NCBI GenBank assembly: GCA_030431355.1
Contig: JAUIJG010000098.1
Location: forward strand, 1 to 13,993
From: a bacterium
GTDB lineage: Bacteria > Cyanobacteriota > Vampirovibrionia > Obscuribacterales > Obscuribacteraceae
Reading direction: 5' to 3'
DNA: 13,993 bases
Made by a program: the position numbers and the translations under genes
Notes under the pieces: generated by a model
The model's database searches: none
Seen by the model: only the letters and a program-made list of their open reading frames with translations
Told to the model about the DNA's origin: nothing
Shown here: positions 1 through 13,831 of the stretch, one piece after another
How the letters are laid out: each line of letters begins with the position of its first letter
Position numbering within the stretch: position 1 is the first letter of the stretch

Positions 1-503
1 ATGGTCAGAACGGCCCGGATGGAGGTCAGGGGTGTGCGCAGGTCGTGGCTAACCATGGCAACCAGGTCTTTTCTCAACGTTTCCAGACGATGTCTCTCGG
101 TAATATCCTGGAGGTGGATAGAGACCCGCTTTTCTGCGTCACTGTCGAACTCATTCACATAGATTTCCACCGGGATAGATTCTCCCGATTTGCCCTGGGC
201 CATGGTTCGCACCGGTCGAGGGTCTATCTTTACCGCCTCAATCTCAGGCAGAATTGACTTGAGCGGCTTGCCCACTATCTCTTCGGGCTTGTAGGCGATA
301 ATCTCCTGAAGCTGTCTGTTTACCACCTCGATTTTGCCGTCATTATTGAGCACTATCAATCCCAGGGGAAAGCTCGTCAACATGCTCCTTACCCGATTTT
401 GATATCGGGTAAGGTTCTTGGTCAGATAGTGGATGGTCTCGGCTTGCTCCCGGGCAAGATTCTTCAGCTCTTCGTAAGTTCTTGGACTGTCTTGATTTTC
501 CAT
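1..503 (-). CDS. PAS-domain sensor histidine kinase, N-terminal part (runs off the window)
   Basis: The reading frame starts at an ATG at 503-501 and stays open to base 1, giving about 167 residues; the rest lies beyond the window. Residues 1-40 are a helical, probably coiled-coil lead. Residues ~42-138 form a PAS domain ending in the usual LQDITER hinge. Next is a HisKA dimerisation helix with an intact H-box (MVSHDLRTPLTS), whose phospho-accepting histidine is His153. No transmembrane segment or signal peptide is seen in this part, so a soluble cytoplasmic sensor is likely. The ATP-binding domain should follow beyond base 1. The start has only a weak GGA at Shine-Dalgarno distance, and the frame stays open further upstream, so the exact start is less sure than the identity. 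The signal sensed by the PAS domain cannot be read from sequence. Confidence 0.9.
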   Translation of the reverse strand, partial: MENQDSPRTYEELKNLAREQAETIHYLTKNLTRYQNRVRSMLTSFPLGLIVLNNDGKIEVVNRQLQEIIAYKPEEIVGKPLKSILPEIEAVKIDPRPVRTMAQGKSGESIPVEIYVNEFDSDAEKRVSIHLQDITERHRLETLRKDLVAMVSHDLRTPLTSIRAVLT

Positions 504-547
504 TTTTCCGAATTCGATATCTAGGATTTTGCCCTGCGGACTAGCTA

Positions 548-556
548 ATTTTAGCA
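548..556 (-). promoter_or_regulatory. Candidate extended -10 promoter for the PAS kinase
   Basis: On the minus strand the sequence reads TGC-TAAAAT, an extended -10 type element, 45 bases upstream of the kinase ATG and downstream of the preceding gene's terminator. No good -35 hexamer sits 16-18 bases further upstream. This is a weak call from motif and position only. Confidence 0.25.
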
Positions 557-584
557 AGGTAGAAATGCCAATAGAGCATGGATG

Positions 585-612
585 AAAAATGCCGACCGCG
601 TTGGCGGTCGGC
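585..612 (-). terminator. Intrinsic terminator of the small LRV/HEAT-like gene
   Basis: A perfect 9-bp GC-rich stem (591-599 pairing with 604-612, 4-base loop) is followed on the minus strand by A and then TTTTT (589-585). It lies 38 bases after the stop codon of the minus-strand gene ending at 650, so it separates that gene from the histidine kinase downstream. Confidence 0.85.
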
Positions 613-649
613 TGTGACAATTAATCGAGGATTACTAGCGGATTGGGAT

Positions 650-1334: not shown

Positions 1335-3623
1335 ATGACCGAATCCATAGAGAAGATCTGCAAGAAGTGCGGAAGACCCAAAAATAGCAAGGATGCCGGG
1401 ACTCTGACCCAGTATCTGAGCCTCTGCAATTGCGATATTGTCCTGGAGAATTCTCCTGAAGTCGAAGAGGAGCGTTTTTGTGATGATTGCTGCAAGAAGA
1501 TAGGCTCGGGAAGAAGGGGCTCTTTTACCCAGTTTATATTTCAATCCCATCTATGCGCTTGCAACAGACCGGTTGCTTCTGAAGGCAGTGAGTTCACGCT
1601 GCTTGATTCACCTGCTTTCAAGGCGGATTCGGAGGAGGTAGAGGACGAGGCTCTCAAACTTTCCTCGGACCAGTTCCCCACTGACCGGTACAAGCCGTTG
1701 CGCAAGCTTGGTCAGGGTGGTAGCGGTGAAGTGTATCTAGCCTTCGACCAGCTTCTGCGAAAGCGAGTAGGGGTAAAGATTTTGCATGTTCTAGAGCCTG
1801 AGATGCTTATTGCCTTTCAGGAAGAGGCAAAAGCGACCAGCCGCCTGGAAGATCCCAACATCATCAACATTCTTGATTTTGGAATAACCGACTCCGGAAT
1901 ACCGTATATGGTGCTGGAGAATTTTGAGGGGCGAGCCCTGTCGGCGATTTTGGAAGAAGATGGTCCCCTCACCCTGGAAGAGTGCTGGATAGTTTTTAGC
2001 CAGGTGTGCGGCGGTCTCTCCTATGCCCATGAACAGGGGATTTACCACCGGGATGTGAAGCCTGGCAATATCCTGATAAAAGGACTTGGTTCCGACGATG
2101 TGGAAGTTAAGATAATCGATTTCGGAGTGGCTAAAGTATCTGAGCTGACTGGAAGAGGTGTCGACTATCAGGGCAACACCCTGGCAGGTAGTCCCGGATA
2201 TATGGCACCGGACCAGGTGCTTGGTCATGAGTATGATCAGCGTTCGGAAGTCTACTCAATCGGATGCGTACTGTTCGAAGCGCTCACGGGAAAGAAACCC
2301 TTCGAAGCCGATAGCGCCCTGGAGCTTCTATCGATGCATGCTCACAATGAGATTCCGCGCCTTGCCGATCATGGAGTCAAGCTTTTTCAGATCGAGTCGG
2401 TGCAAGAGATAATTAATAAATGTCTTGCCAAAGACCTGAACGAGCGCTTCCAGTCCATGGATGAGTTGATGCAGGCTATAGAAGCATTGTTCAAAGAGGA
2501 CTCCTTCGCCCCCGAGTCAAGCTTCCGCCATGAAAGACGGCCAGGACGAAAGAAAAGTATAGCACCGCTGGTGGTTTTATTCGTCTTATTCTCAATGCCC
2601 CTGATCTTAGTTATAGGATACGTTATTAATGGCAGTGACTCTCTGGATACTTCGAAAGTGAATTCGGAAAGTCATATTAGAGCTAAATCCGATCATCGCG
2701 ACCCTCTTAGTGATGCCTCAGTAGTCAAAAATTCATTTGGGGCGGTCAAATCTGAAGCCGCCGGTGCATCTTCCGAAAGTTCTGCCGGAGCGGCAGGAGA
2801 GGACTTGCTCAAGCCGCGTCTGATGCCTGTGGGAAGAACTCCTTTTCAGTTTTACGCATCGGGAGACTGGTCCGACGATGATCTCAAAGGAATCCAAAAA
2901 ATTCGGAATCTCAAAGGACTGTCGCTGAAAGGCAAGCAGATCACCGGAGCCGGGCTAAAGCATCTCACCGCCATTCCCCTGGAAGGTATTGATTTGAGCA
3001 GTACTCCGGTTAAAGACGAGCATGTAAAAATATTGGCGGAGATAAAAACGCTGAAGCGTATTCGCCTGGAAGATACCGGTATTACGGATGCGGCTATCTT
3101 ATCGATCAACACTTTGCCTGTTCTCAACTATATTGATCTGAAAGGAACTAAGGTAACGGACATTGCCGTCGGAAGTCTTGGCCAGCTAAAGATGCTTTCG
3201 GTTATTGATTTGCGCAAACTTCCCAATGTTAGAGGAGAGTCTTTGGAGAAGCTCAAGGGTCAGAAGTTCATATTGTGGCTTGTTCTCAATGGTACCAAAT
3301 TAAGTGCGGAAGGTTGCAGGCAGTTAGGCACCCTGGGTAATGTCAGAAACGTGAGTCTCGCCTATAGCGGGCTGGATGACGATAAGGTCAAATTTCTCAA
3401 GGAGATGAATGTGGACGCCCTGGATATAAGTGGCAATAATATTACCGACCGGAGCCTGATTGAGCTATCTAGAATGAAGGCGTTGAAACGGCTGGTGGTT
3501 GCTGATTGCTCGAAGATCACAGAGAAAGGGCTGAAAGAATTTAAATCTCGGCGCGGAGACCTGCCCCACTGTGCGGTCGAGAAGAGACTGAGTCCCCAGC
3601 TCAAATTTTTCTACAACCTTTAG
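1335..3623 (+). CDS. Membrane-bound Ser/Thr protein kinase with N-terminal paired-Cys region and C-terminal leucine-rich repeats
   Basis: This 762-residue PknB-type kinase phosphorylates Ser/Thr on cytoplasmic proteins. Residues 9-77 hold two similar Cys-rich units (CKKCG...CNC at 9-33, CDDC...CAC at 49-76), probably zinc-binding. The kinase domain spans ~119-388. It shows a Gly-rich loop (GQGGSG, 126-131), Lys148, an HRD loop (His238-Asp240, then KPGN), DFG (262-264), and APD (291-293) in place of APE, so catalytic activity is expected. A basic stretch precedes a single membrane segment at ~409-430. A Ser/Ala-rich linker (435-490) follows, then about eight leucine-rich-repeat units (515-740), expected outside the membrane as a sensor or binding domain. 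The ATG directly follows an in-frame TAG and has no clear Shine-Dalgarno. It is the only start that keeps the first Cys unit. A strong terminator follows the gene. Confidence 0.95.
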   Translation: MTESIEKICKKCGRPKNSKDAGTLTQYLSLCNCDIVLENSPEVEEERFCDDCCKKIGSGRRGSFTQFIFQSHLCACNRPVASEGSEFTLLDSPAFKADSEEVEDEALKLSSDQFPTDRYKPLRKLGQGGSGEVYLAFDQLLRKRVGVKILHVLEPEMLIAFQEEAKATSRLEDPNIINILDFGITDSGIPYMVLENFEGRALSAILEEDGPLTLEECWIVFSQVCGGLSYAHEQGIYHRDVKPGNILIKGLGSDDVEVKIIDFGVAKVSELTGRGVDYQGNTLAGSPGYMAPDQVLGHEYDQRSEVYSIGCVLFEALTGKKPFEADSALELLSMHAHNEIPRLADHGVKLFQIESVQEIINKCLAKDLNERFQSMDELMQAIEALFKEDSFAPESSFRHERRPGRKKSIAPLVVLFVLFSMPLILVIGYVINGSDSLDTSKVNSESHIRAKSDHRDPLSDASVVKNSFGAVKSEAAGASSESSAGAAGEDLLKPRLMPVGRTPFQFYASGDWSDDDLKGIQKIRNLKGLSLKGKQITGAGLKHLTAIPLEGIDLSSTPVKDEHVKILAEIKTLKRIRLEDTGITDAAILSINTLPVLNYIDLKGTKVTDIAVGSLGQLKMLSVIDLRKLPNVRGESLEKLKGQKFILWLVLNGTKLSAEGCRQLGTLGNVRNVSLAYSGLDDDKVKFLKEMNVDALDISGNNITDRSLIELSRMKALKRLVVADCSKITEKGLKEFKSRRGDLPHCAVEKRLSPQLKFFYNL

Positions 3624-10420: not shown

Positions 10421-10768
10421 TTACTTTCCTGCCGAGCTTTTCAGAACAGCTTCCGTTAAAGGGGTGAGCCCGAGCTTTATAGAATAAAGCTGTTTGTCGA
10501 ATTTCTCCAATATGGAGATGGCGGAGTATATCTCCGTGGATGTTTTTTTCTCATGGTCGGCGATTATGACACCATCACCTTCGAATGCCTTAACCATAGG
10601 CCTGGCTATCTCTTCGGTGAGCTGGCCGGTGGAGAGCCAATCAGGTATACATAGCTCCAGATTGTCTTTTTCTTCGGCTGCCATCTGCTTGAACTGCAAG
10701 ACCTCCTCGGTGGAAAAGGGCAAAGCCAGCAGTTTTGCCGGAGTTTTATTAGACTCGGTCTTGGACAT
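10421..10768 (-). CDS. Protein of unknown function (115 residues) downstream of an XRE regulator
   Basis: Not recognised. The ATG has an unusually strong leader: AAGGAGG (10784-10778) followed directly by AAGGAGA (10777-10771), two overlapping ribosome-binding options. The protein is soluble and of mixed alpha/beta character, with no signal peptide, membrane segment or obvious catalytic motif. Residues ~17-60 are helical and acidic; ~65-73 (FEGDGVIIAD) looks like a buried strand; the C-terminal part is helical. It lies 50 bases after the XRE gene on the same strand, so the two are probably one transcript. It may be a partner or effector of that regulator. The length, solubility and place next to HTH genes would suit an adaptor. 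Confidence 0.7.
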   Translation of the reverse strand: MSKTESNKTPAKLLALPFSTEEVLQFKQMAAEEKDNLELCIPDWLSTGQLTEEIARPMVKAFEGDGVIIADHEKKTSTEIYSAISILEKFDKQLYSIKLGLTPLTEAVLKSSAGK

Positions 10769-10818: not shown

Positions 10819-11145
10819 TTACTCAGAGTCTTCCTGGTTGACATCTTTGTATTCGTTTGCTTTTTCCAAAAGCTTCAGCAAGCTTGAATTGAGGGCTTTC
10901 GCCAGGGCATGCAGTTGCAGCAAGCTTGCCGCTTTTGAGCCCTTTTCGATGGCTTCTAGATTGTCTGGTTTGACCCCGGCTTTGTCGGCAAGCTCCTCGA
11001 TACTAAAATCTTTCGATTTTCTAATTACCTCTATGGCTTTGCCTAAACCCTTCTTGTTTCTTTGAATAACCATGGCTTGTTCTATCTTGCGATCTGAGTT
11101 TCCACGCTTTACAGCATTATTTGGTTGATAGCGCACCCTGAACAA
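10819..11145 (-). CDS. XRE-family helix-turn-helix regulator
   Basis: A 108-residue DNA-binding protein. The start is TTG at 11145, preceded by AAGGAGG at a 7-base spacing; an internal ATG at residue 25 has no comparable site. Residues ~33-92 form an XRE domain (IRKSKDFSIEELADKAGVKP, then LEAIEKGSK, then LHALAKAL), with the recognition helix around 52-65. The basic N-terminal arm (residues 1-32) is an extension beyond the domain. The acidic tail (EYKDVNQEDSE) is short. It is the first gene of a two-gene unit with the 115-residue protein and is divergent from the phytochrome-like kinase across a 139-bp gap, so it may regulate itself and the kinase. Another XRE domain occurs in the receiver fusion nearby. 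Confidence 0.85.
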   Translation of the reverse strand: MFRVRYQPNNAVKRGNSDRKIEQAMVIQRNKKGLGKAIEVIRKSKDFSIEELADKAGVKPDNLEAIEKGSKAASLLQLHALAKALNSSLLKLLEKANEYKDVNQEDSE

Positions 11146-11284
11146 AATGATGCCTCCTTAAAGAGACTTCCTCATTTTGATTACAGGTACAATTAGCATT
11201 CTTTCGGGAGAGCTATGCTATTTATAGGTAGTCGAGTGCAGAAAAGTCCAATTTGCTGCGGAGTGGGAGGTTCTTTTTGCCGGT
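11146..11284. promoter_or_regulatory. Divergent promoter region of the XRE gene and phytochrome-like kinase
   Basis: This 139-bp gap must carry the promoters for both directions. A plus-strand TACAAT (11188-11193) and a TATGCTATTTATAGG stretch (11214-11228) are possible -10 areas, but no matching -35 is clear. The kinase ribosome-binding site GGAGG (11266-11270) is 14 bases from its ATG, longer than optimal. No upstream start is available because an in-frame TAG lies at 11225. Confidence 0.4.
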
Positions 11285-13831
11285 ATGGCAGAAGATAGAG
11301 TAAAAGAGACAACTGAGACGGTGGCTAATCGCGAAAGCGGATTGAAAAGCTTACAGATCCAACCTTTTGGGTTCCTTCTTGTCACGGATCTGAACTTGAA
11401 GATCCTTGGTGTCAGCGACAATATCGATGAATTCCTGGGGCTTAAGGCTGGTTCTCTTCTGGGCAAGGTCTTGCCGGAGTCTCTCAAATTCGTGGAGCTG
11501 GACGATTTTGACGAGATTGCTTCTGCTTTAGGTCCTGTCCCTGAAACATTCCGGGTATCCGTTAAGGATAAAGCCGGAGGCAAGAAAGATTTCCTTTTAA
11601 CCGGTCACAGAGAAGGCGATAAGTACTATCTGGAGTTTGAGGCTCTAATTCGCACCTCCAGATCGCTTGGAATGAAGCTGGTTAGTGAGTCGGTGGCGAA
11701 GTTTCGTACCTGCACCATGCTGGAAGATCTTCTCTATCAGATAGCCCAGAGCATAAGAGCGCTCACGGACTATGAGCGAGTTCTTGTATATAAGTTTGAT
11801 GAGAATTGGGATTCCCAGGTTCTGGCGGAAGCCCAGGCTGAACGTGTAGAAGAGTCTTTCCTCTATCGTTACTTCTCGTCCAAAGTTATTCCTTTCGAGA
11901 CCCGGGAGATTTACAAGAATAGCTTTATCCGAATCATTCCAGACCTAAACTATGAATCGGTGGGAGTTGCCACTGCAAATGGTGAAAATCTTGATTTGAA
12001 CAACTGCTTTCTGCGCGGGGTCTCCCCCAGCCATCTCAGCTACATGAAAAACCTGGGGGTCAATTCAGCGGTCATACTCTCCATTGTAATAAAAGGGGAG
12101 TTATGGGGACTGGTAGTCGCTTATGGCTACCAAGTCAAAGAACTCCCTCACAGAGTGAGAGAAGCTTGCGTGTCCCTCAGTCATCTGGCAGCGGCCAGTA
12201 TCGAGTATCAGGTAAGCAACGCTGAAAAAGAGCATATCAATGAAAAGGACGACAAGCTCTACCATCTGACGAACATTATCAACTCTAACAGCCTGCCGCT
12301 GATGGATATGATCGAGTTGAATAGAAATGACTTTTCCGAATTTATTGATAGCTCAGGATTTGCCGTTGTGGATGGAGACAAAGTCCACAACTATTTGAGC
12401 AGCCTCTCCAGACAAGAGATCCTCGACCTGAGAAATTGGATTGTCGAACAGAACTATGAAGGCATATACAGCGTCAGCAATCTCTCCCGGCATTTCGACA
12501 AAGCAAGGGGCTATTGCTCCAAGGTATCCGGAGTGCTTGCCATCAGTCCGAGTAGTGATTACAGCCGATGGATATTCTGGTTCCGAAAACCGGTGCTCAA
12601 GATGGAGCGACCGGGGGTGGAGGCCACCATCGTTCCTGGTTCCGAGAATCTAGAAAGTCCGACCAATGCCAGACCTTTCGACTCTGTGGAGGTGCAGTTT
12701 GCCGACAAGCTTAAAGAGCGACTGATCAAACACACCCTGGCCAGTACCCAGAAAGACAAAGAGAAGCTGGAGGCGCACCGGGAATTTCTTGCTTCCATCG
12801 TGGACTCATCTAAAGACGGTATTGTCGGTTTCTCCTCCAACAGGGAGATAATTTCCTGGAACCAGGGTGCTTCGGATCTCTTCGGGTTGAGCGCATCAGA
12901 GGTCATCGGTCAGCCCCTCTCGGAAATCTTCGGTGCCGATGATGAAGTATTCTCTCTCATCTCCATAGATCCTTCCGAAACCATCGAGAGGAAAATCACC
13001 CGGGTGGACGGGCAGACCCTGGAGCTTTCCATGAAGGTCTATCCGATTATGAACACCGGCGATAGCCCTATATTTGGTGCTGCTATTATCCGTGATATCA
13101 CCGCCCAGAAGCAGGCGGAAAGAGAGCTTTTGTTAATGTCCCAACAGCTTGTCGAGACCAACAGGCAGTTGGAAGAGTATGCCTGGGTGGCTGCCCACGA
13201 CCTTAAGGAGCCGGTCCGTACCATGGGGACATACGCCAGATTGGTCTTTCAGGACTATGAAGACAAAGTCGATGAAGAAGGCAAGGAGATGCTCAATATT
13301 ATCTTCTCGTCGGCTTCCAACGCCATGAATAGAATCGATGACATATTGAGCTATTCTTCCCTGGGTCGCAGCGAGTTCAGCACTGCGGTGGTTGATCTGG
13401 ATGATATTTTGAGTAGAGTCGTTAAGGATCTTGGTCATGCCATCAAAGAAAGCGGCGGCAAAGTAGTATCAAACGACCTTCCATCTATTATGGGCAATGC
13501 CGATATGCTTTCCCTGCTCTTTCAGAATCTGATCAGCAACGCAATTAAATTCAGGTCGGATAAGCCGCCTGTGGTCGATATCTCCGGTGAAGTTTTCGAC
13601 GATATAGTGCTGGTGAAGGTTGCCGACAATGGTATCGGAGTTAGTGAGAAGCACAAGGACCACATATTCGGAATGTTCAAGCGCCTTGATACCAAGTATC
13701 CCGGCACCGGTCTCGGACTCTCCATCGTAAGACGCATTGTCGAGTTGCACGGGGGCAAAATCTGGTTGGAAAGCGAGCCTGGAAAAGGCACCACCTTCAA
13801 CATTGAGTTCAGGGCCGCTTCCAAAGATTAG
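11285..13831 (+). CDS. Phytochrome-architecture histidine kinase lacking key bilin-binding residues
   Basis: An 848-residue soluble kinase with the order PAS_2 (~23-120), GAF (~140-310), PHY (~325-485), extra PAS (~498-608), HisKA (~625-695) and HATPase (~740-845). The first four match the phytochrome photosensory module plus a PAS (IQPFGFLLV, VLVYKFDENW, RGVSPSHLSYMKNLGV, WGLVVAYGY, FWFRKPV). His638 (AAHDLKEPVR) accepts phosphate; the N box (NLISNAIKFR), DNGIGV and GTGLGLSIV bind ATP, so the kinase should work. In the sensor the PASDIP Asp is Val201, the Cys after His250 is Leu251, CHH is replaced by Ala279-Tyr280-Gly281, the tongue PRxSF is not recognisable, and there is no Cys before the PAS. 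Covalent bilin attachment and normal photochemistry are therefore unlikely. The output half is of the cyanobacterial-phytochrome type that feeds Rcp1-like receivers. Confidence 0.93.
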   Translation: MAEDRVKETTETVANRESGLKSLQIQPFGFLLVTDLNLKILGVSDNIDEFLGLKAGSLLGKVLPESLKFVELDDFDEIASALGPVPETFRVSVKDKAGGKKDFLLTGHREGDKYYLEFEALIRTSRSLGMKLVSESVAKFRTCTMLEDLLYQIAQSIRALTDYERVLVYKFDENWDSQVLAEAQAERVEESFLYRYFSSKVIPFETREIYKNSFIRIIPDLNYESVGVATANGENLDLNNCFLRGVSPSHLSYMKNLGVNSAVILSIVIKGELWGLVVAYGYQVKELPHRVREACVSLSHLAAASIEYQVSNAEKEHINEKDDKLYHLTNIINSNSLPLMDMIELNRNDFSEFIDSSGFAVVDGDKVHNYLSSLSRQEILDLRNWIVEQNYEGIYSVSNLSRHFDKARGYCSKVSGVLAISPSSDYSRWIFWFRKPVLKMERPGVEATIVPGSENLESPTNARPFDSVEVQFADKLKERLIKHTLASTQKDKEKLEAHREFLASIVDSSKDGIVGFSSNREIISWNQGASDLFGLSASEVIGQPLSEIFGADDEVFSLISIDPSETIERKITRVDGQTLELSMKVYPIMNTGDSPIFGAAIIRDITAQKQAERELLLMSQQLVETNRQLEEYAWVAAHDLKEPVRTMGTYARLVFQDYEDKVDEEGKEMLNIIFSSASNAMNRIDDILSYSSLGRSEFSTAVVDLDDILSRVVKDLGHAIKESGGKVVSNDLPSIMGNADMLSLLFQNLISNAIKFRSDKPPVVDISGEVFDDIVLVKVADNGIGVSEKHKDHIFGMFKRLDTKYPGTGLGLSIVRRIVELHGGKIWLESEPGKGTTFNIEFRAASKD

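Follow-up and report, generated by a model that had tools for sequence, protein, structure and literature searches.

Positions 1 to 13,993 of contig JAUIJG010000098.1 (assembly GCA_030431355.1), called the window below, encode an 848-amino-acid sensor histidine kinase with the domain plan of a phytochrome and a heavily altered pigment pocket. The explanation that we consider likely is a light-independent cytoplasmic two-component kinase of Obscuribacterales-type bacteria, which form a side branch of the cyanobacteria. In this reading, a repurposed PAS-GAF-PHY module does not work as a bilin photoreceptor, and the kinase signals to a nearby XRE-REC regulator, an XRE-type helix-turn-helix protein fused to a receiver domain. 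Most of what would bind and switch the pigment is lost, the signaling half is kept, and a likely partner is encoded nearby, so the kinase probably senses a signal other than light. The sequence has no Cys where bilins are known to attach; the photocycle Asp and His, the Ser pair, and the tongue motif are gone as well, and the fold and kinase motifs are kept. It is very unlikely that this protein attaches a bilin covalently or photoswitches normally. It may well bind no bilin at all, but a bilin or another ligand could conceivably be held non-covalently. The initial annotation had proposed that a phytochrome scaffold now serves a different signal in a lineage that may not be photosynthetic, an idea supported here by clade-wide losses, intact genes, and a better-conserved output half. 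Candidatus Melainabacteria and Obscuribacterales are regarded as non-photosynthetic (PMC10151467).

All six Pfam domains of the kinase score above their own cut-offs, in the PAS-GAF-PHY-PAS-HisKA-HATPase order that had been claimed for it (Table 1). PAS_2, GAF, and PHY in succession place the protein among proteins of the phytochrome fold, while H638, N748/N752, a DNGIG box, and GTGLGL identify it as a sensor histidine kinase and bear out, at the motif level, the earlier view of an intact kinase half. The annotated N-terminus, which lacks Cys, is most likely right because an in-frame TAG (11225-11227) lies upstream and none of the 19 codons from there to the kinase ATG is ATG, GTG, or TTG. A missed upstream start adding a Cys was therefore ruled out for these three codons, as the Cys codon in that interval has no usual start. 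The second PAS domain was also considered as a LOV photoreceptor and rejected, since no Cys occurs in residues 501-605 of the translation. When this domain alone was compared with solved structures, the single match at E <= 1e-6 was a lectin (E 5.6e-7) and was uninformative. Rfam gave no match anywhere in the window.

Pocket residues were matched through a pairwise alignment with full-length DrBphP (8sgk), whose chain numbering is, by our own reading, the usual DrBphP numbering plus 14, and they are discussed in the roles customarily assigned to them in DrBphP. Val201 aligns to D207, the PASDIP Asp; Y280 to H290; A262 and I264 to S272 and S274; and S177 to G184. The retained positions are Y169, Y210, and Y253 (DrBphP Y176, Y216, and Y263) together with R216, R244, and H250 (R222, R254, and H260). 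The replacement of the PASDIP Asp by Val201, the Ala279-Tyr280-Gly281 in place of CHH, the missing PRxSF tongue and N-terminal Cys, and the survival of His250 had all been noted initially, and each was confirmed. One placement required correction: the GAF Cys position had been assigned to Leu251, but Cys directly precedes His in the dual-Cys phytochrome FiDCB (9jry), so the position is that of Ser249, where the whole family carries Ser. The accompanying statement that no GAF Cys is present there stands. The idea that canonical residues are merely shifted was rejected, because profile and pairwise alignments alike put V201, H250, and Y280 on D207, H260, and H290 of DrBphP. In the structure model, confidence falls below 50 at residues 439-461, within the linker found at the tongue site.

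Through a search of approximately 5.8 billion proteins, in which 7,993 best-sharing candidates were scored, we identified four proteins closely related to the sensor, namely P0002 (53% identity), P0003 (52%), P0004 (53%), and P0005 (48%); the next matches among those listed reached at most 31%. Overall, these relatives are 59-64% identical to the window kinase, and all five reading frames are intact. P0003 and P0004 are named Candidatus Melainabacteria / Candidatus Obscuribacterales. A profile built from the five sequences (7,992 best-sharing candidates scored) brought up no sixth member in the best 120 of 188 matches. No close family member was found in reference genomes, where a contig scan with two peptide patterns yielded 19 relatives, all at 22-30% identity. 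Searching whole genomes with the family profile recovered phytochromes at no more than 231 bits. At E <= 1e-12, such matches occurred in 154 of 195 genomes in the order of G103 (at most 8 candidates scored per genome), 29 of 382 in the class of G240 (at most 4), and 23 of 53 in the order of G567 (all candidates). The kinase half found a match in every one of 386 genomes of one phylum, and querying plasmids with the full-length protein gave at least 5,000 records, all below 60% identity, which was uninformative.

The losses are a property of the family. As a control, 90 non-family phytochrome sensors were assembled from bacterial protein-search matches and genome loci without selection by pocket, P0019 and P0056-P0058 having been excluded before alignment. 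Omitting L070, L073, L077, L078, and L084 (no N-terminal Cys and no PRxSF), P0055 (no PRxSF), and L067 and L069 (both cut short by contig ends) left 82 canonical rows. All five family members carry Val for the PASDIP Asp, whereas Asp is present in 90/90 of the other aligned phytochromes, a count that spans all aligned rows. Tyr replaces the CHH His in 5/5, against His in 77 of the 82 canonical rows. The PRxSF motif and a Cys no more than 22 residues ahead of the IQP motif are each found in 82/82 canonical rows and in no family member, and the stretch from WFR to the next helix measures 21-35 residues in the family, whereas canonical rows have 42-58 (median 45). The position of S272 is Ala in four members and Ser in P0004, and that of S274 is Ile or Phe in all five. 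The replacements in the pocket are themselves fixed across the family: Ser177 stands in 5/5 where 82/82 canonical rows have Gly (G184), and Thr206 in 5/5 where 81/82 have Ala (A212). Cys143 is likewise present in 5/5, versus 5/82 canonical rows. The equivalents of Y176, Y216, R222, R254, the pocket His H260, and Y263 are retained throughout the family.

In a quick sensor tree of 85 rows, which left out L069, L071, L083, L094, half of the cyanobacterial loci, and most P rows, the five members form one clade (Shimodaira-Hasegawa-like approximate likelihood-ratio test, 100), and the branch leading to it is 1.25 changes per column long. The tree places this clade tentatively, among further long branches whose forks are open, and outside any supported group of its own order. 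As the losses are common to a clade of intact genes, they do not stem from a single decayed copy. Identity between the window kinase and its relatives is 52-54% in PAS-GAF, 45-59% in PHY, 72-76% in the second PAS, and 74-76% in the kinase; the output half is retained and the input half evolves faster.

The probable partner is encoded 998 bases from the kinase gene in divergent orientation, with two small genes between them. The receiver of this XRE-REC protein resembles phytochrome-type response regulators: its nearest group among solved structures includes 8avv (a regulator fused to a bacteriophytochrome), RcpA, Rcp1, and RcpB. Of its best seven PDB matches, five (8avv, 1k68, 1i3c, 1jlk, and 1k66) bear the name of a phytochrome regulator or of Rcp1; the best match of all, 6xvu, and 5te9 are named response regulator only. 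P0151 is a partial regulator copy, 85% identical to the window XRE-REC. Its longest contig and that of the blind phytochrome P0004 both measure 43,057 bases; the two are probably on one contig. Orthologues of the regulator at 57-66% identity occur in 5 of the 53 genomes of one order (G562, G561, G592, G517, and G575), and the other full-length copies listed for the order reach at most 43%. The regulators of G562, G561, G592, and G575 equal P0143, P0144, P0150, and P0167 letter for letter from residue 2. The organism name is Candidatus Obscuribacterales for P0143 and P0167 and Candidatus Melainabacteria for P0144, and the order of the 53 genomes is taken to be Obscuribacterales.

Related kinases also accompany these orthologous regulators. 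In G561, G592, G517, and G575, a kinase that shares 45-49% identity with the kinase half of the window protein is encoded 0.8-1.9 kb from the regulator gene; in G562, regulator and related kinase sit at the ends of two contigs. A Pfam scan of these five kinases (L118, L119, L120, L121, and L135) gave no PHY match. L118, L119, L121, and L135, one of which is the kinase across the contig gap in G562, carry the ethylene-receptor-like sensor ETR1_N (PF25487) above the Pfam cut-off, and L120 begins at PAS. The ETR1_N kinases thus resemble the window kinase in the PAS-HisKA-HATPase half and in a nearby orthologous XRE-REC, but have a membrane ETR1_N sensor where the window kinase has PAS-GAF-PHY. 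Their CG..H motif, which we take to be a copper site, is by eye intact only in L119 and L135. The nearest kinase of all is L134 of G561, which is 57% identical, comprises a PAS-histidine kinase half, and has no recognized sensor in front. The kinase tree, in which long branches were flagged, joins L134 to the blind phytochromes (100/100) and keeps both separate from the ETR1_N kinases. L134 and the ETR1_N kinases are paralogous lines, as G561 carries both. The theme of a kinase with an XRE-Rcp1-type regulator is thus constant and the sensor varies, with replacement possible in either direction. In the L134 locus (5637-14583), the kinase stands beside VirD4-like and TraG-type conjugation genes, surroundings that suggest a mobile element. 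More distant PAS-histidine kinases (L127-L133, 35-39% identical) include some next to Rcp1-like receivers by coordinates, and a PocR sensory domain was found in the three that were scanned (L127, L130, and L132).

In the proposed mechanism, the PAS-GAF-PHY module, dimeric like other phytochromes, would transmit a non-light signal to HisKA. The signal could be a small ligand whose acidic group sits at the two retained Arg of the altered GAF pocket; a thiol or redox change at Cys143, near a helix that presumably belongs to the GAF dimer contact; or a ligand of the second PAS. His638 would then be phosphorylated and the phosphate passed to the phytochrome-type receiver of XRE-REC, which, once phosphorylated, would change transcription. 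A bolder version, which we offer tentatively as a possibility and not as the expected outcome, is that the whole clade is a chemical or redox sensor: the module would have been plugged by sensor exchange onto an ETR1_N-type kinase line feeding a shared XRE-Rcp1-type regulator, and the pocket would have been rebuilt for a new ligand through Val201, Tyr280, Ser177, and Thr206.

Several observations weigh against a light-independent kinase of this kind. Structure titles indicate that DrBphP-type proteins changed at Asp207, His290, His260, Cys, or the tongue have been crystallized as phytochromes, and these presumably hold bilin; no single loss therefore proves blindness. As the equivalents of His260, Tyr176, Tyr216, Tyr263, Arg222, and Arg254 are kept in all members, a tetrapyrrole could still occupy the pocket. 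The phosphotransfer from the kinase to XRE-REC is putative, the kinases near orthologous regulators are relatives and not strict orthologues of the window kinase, and gene order is divergent in the window and convergent in L118-L121. Because P0002-P0004 are mutually 83-89% identical, the family is known from three lineages only. Furthermore, heme oxygenase is widespread in the order and associated with phytochromes, occurring in 34 of the 53 genomes: 20 of the 23 with a phytochrome match and 14 of the 30 without (Fisher p 0.0035). It is present in all five genomes nearest by regulator (G517, G561, G562, G575, and G592). Biliverdin may well be available, and the absence of pigment therefore cannot be assumed; the distribution of heme oxygenase is neither for, nor strongly against, blindness.

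These points feed the view that the protein is still a photoreceptor or pigment sensor, holding a bilin, heme, or another tetrapyrrole non-covalently in the GAF pocket through the two Arg and His250, with unusual or non-switching photochemistry. Conservation of Arg216, Arg244, His250, Tyr169, Tyr210, and Tyr253 in 5/5 and the heme oxygenase of the nearest genomes speak for it. We nevertheless regard it as unlikely, because all five members have lost the counterparts of Asp207, His290, and S274 along with the Cys and PRxSF, four of the five have also lost that of S272, the replacing residues are hydrophobic or bulky (Val, Tyr, Ile/Phe), and heme oxygenase is also encoded in nearly half of the genomes of the order that lack a phytochrome match. 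The module might instead be a mere dimerization scaffold, with the second PAS or nothing at all doing the sensing and activity set by expression or a partner protein. This fits L134, which has its PAS-histidine kinase half with no recognized sensor, and L120, which has PAS only, as well as the far better conservation of the second PAS than of PAS-GAF. However, many residues of the module are invariant, and a bare scaffold would not need Val201, Tyr280, Ser177, and Thr206 to be fixed in 5/5; this pattern, drawn from three lineages, is suggestive, and we rate the scaffold reading as rather improbable. That the gene is decaying and heading for loss could explain the long stem branch and the faster evolution of the sensor, but is highly improbable in view of five intact frames, four of them at 59-64% identity to that of the window, conserved catalytic motifs, and a regulator that is probably linked in a second lineage as well.

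The repurposed kinase that we favor can be compared with known systems. DrBphP, SaBphP, and Cph1 with their Rcp1-type regulators share with it the PAS-GAF-PHY fold and order, the HisKA/HATPase output, and a phytochrome-type receiver nearby. Unlike them, the window kinase lacks the bilin Cys, the PASDIP Asp, the CHH His, and the PRxSF tongue, has an extra PAS between PHY and HisKA, and is accompanied by a receiver fused to an XRE DNA-binding domain. The nearest precedent is the redox-sensing bacteriophytochrome of R. palustris, reportedly described by Vuillet in 2007 as a natural phytochrome kinase that has lost its chromophore and is independent of light. This RpBphP4-like protein is reported to show redox-controlled autophosphorylation without a chromophore in strains of one proteobacterial species. 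The window family, by comparison, is a whole clade, belongs to a different phylum, and has lost more of the pocket. To our knowledge, natural loss of phytochrome light sensing is recorded mainly for that one R. palustris protein. In R. palustris, RpBphP2 and RpBphP3 were also found to be required for the low-light LH4 response although light-quality sensing was dispensable there, and they do sense light quality in other conditions (PMC6879726). They resemble the window kinase in having a role without photoswitching, but are light-sensing elsewhere. Searches of open-licence papers brought up no description of a Melainabacteria phytochrome that is blind; one paper matched for phytochromes with Melainabacteria treats bilin enzymes (PMC10151467). 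A clade with fixed losses, in an order where 23 of 53 genomes have other phytochromes, offers a natural comparison for a phytochrome module without pigment. It makes testable both the phytochrome gating of kinases by other ligands and the exchange of sensor modules under a constant kinase-regulator theme.

Table 1. Positions of the kinase, its domains and diagnostic residues, and the adjacent regulatory genes in the window.
Feature	Position	Strand	Evidence
Probable partner, XRE helix-turn-helix fused to phytochrome-type (Rcp1-like) receiver, 225 aa	9609..10286	-	Pfam, structure matches
115-aa protein between the two helix-turn-helix genes, no Pfam match; candidate system member at most	10421..10768	-	Open reading frame
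Small XRE-type helix-turn-helix protein, 108 aa, divergent neighbor; candidate system member at most	10819..11145	-	Pfam
Phytochrome-type sensor histidine kinase, probably light-blind, 848 aa, ATG start	11285..13831	+	Open reading frame, Pfam, fold
PAS_2, residues 24-120; no Cys among the 24 residues before Ile25	11354..11644	+	Pfam
Cys143	11711..11713	+	Hand alignment with DrBphP A150
GAF, residues 146-284, former bilin pocket	11720..12136	+	Pfam
Val201 replacing PASDIP Asp (DrBphP D207)	11885..11887	+	Alignment
Ser249-His250; Ser at Cph1-type Cys position, His (DrBphP H260) kept	12029..12034	+	Alignment
Ala262-Val263-Ile264; 262 and 264 replace Ser pair (DrBphP S272/S274)	12068..12076	+	Alignment
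Ala279-Tyr280-Gly281 replacing CHH (Tyr280, DrBphP H290)	12119..12127	+	Alignment
PHY match, residues 341-438	12305..12598	+	Pfam
Short variable linker at PRxSF tongue site, residues 435-464 (30 residues; canonical median 45)	12587..12676	+	Alignment, model
Second PAS, residues 501-605	12785..13099	+	Pfam
HisKA, residues 636-694; phospho-acceptor His638 at 13196-13198	13190..13366	+	Pfam
HATPase_c, residues 738-844	13496..13816	+	Pfam

Other phytochromes of the same order were also recorded. Judged by coordinates, L080 (G517:C1) and L065 (G569:C77), both with canonical pocket residues, lie close to a heme oxygenase gene; the former is a 503-amino-acid PAS-GAF-PHY open frame with no Pfam output domain. 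A second odd group consists of L070, L073, L077, L078, and L084 (G576, G584, G595, G538, and G586), open frames of 513-547 amino acids that lack the N-terminal Cys and PRxSF, have DIT or DIS for DIP, and carry Ala at the R254 equivalent in 5/5. Their Asp and His are retained, and Pfam recognizes PAS_2, GAF, and PHY only in all five, with no kinase. Outside the order, P0055 of Rhizobium azibense (510 amino acids) is a kinase-less PAS-GAF-PHY protein without PRxSF and several pocket residues in which the Asp is kept. Elsewhere in the window, positions 1335-3623 (+) encode a Ser/Thr protein kinase fused to leucine-rich repeats, and positions 3-620 (-) another PAS-HisKA histidine kinase that is cut at the window edge.
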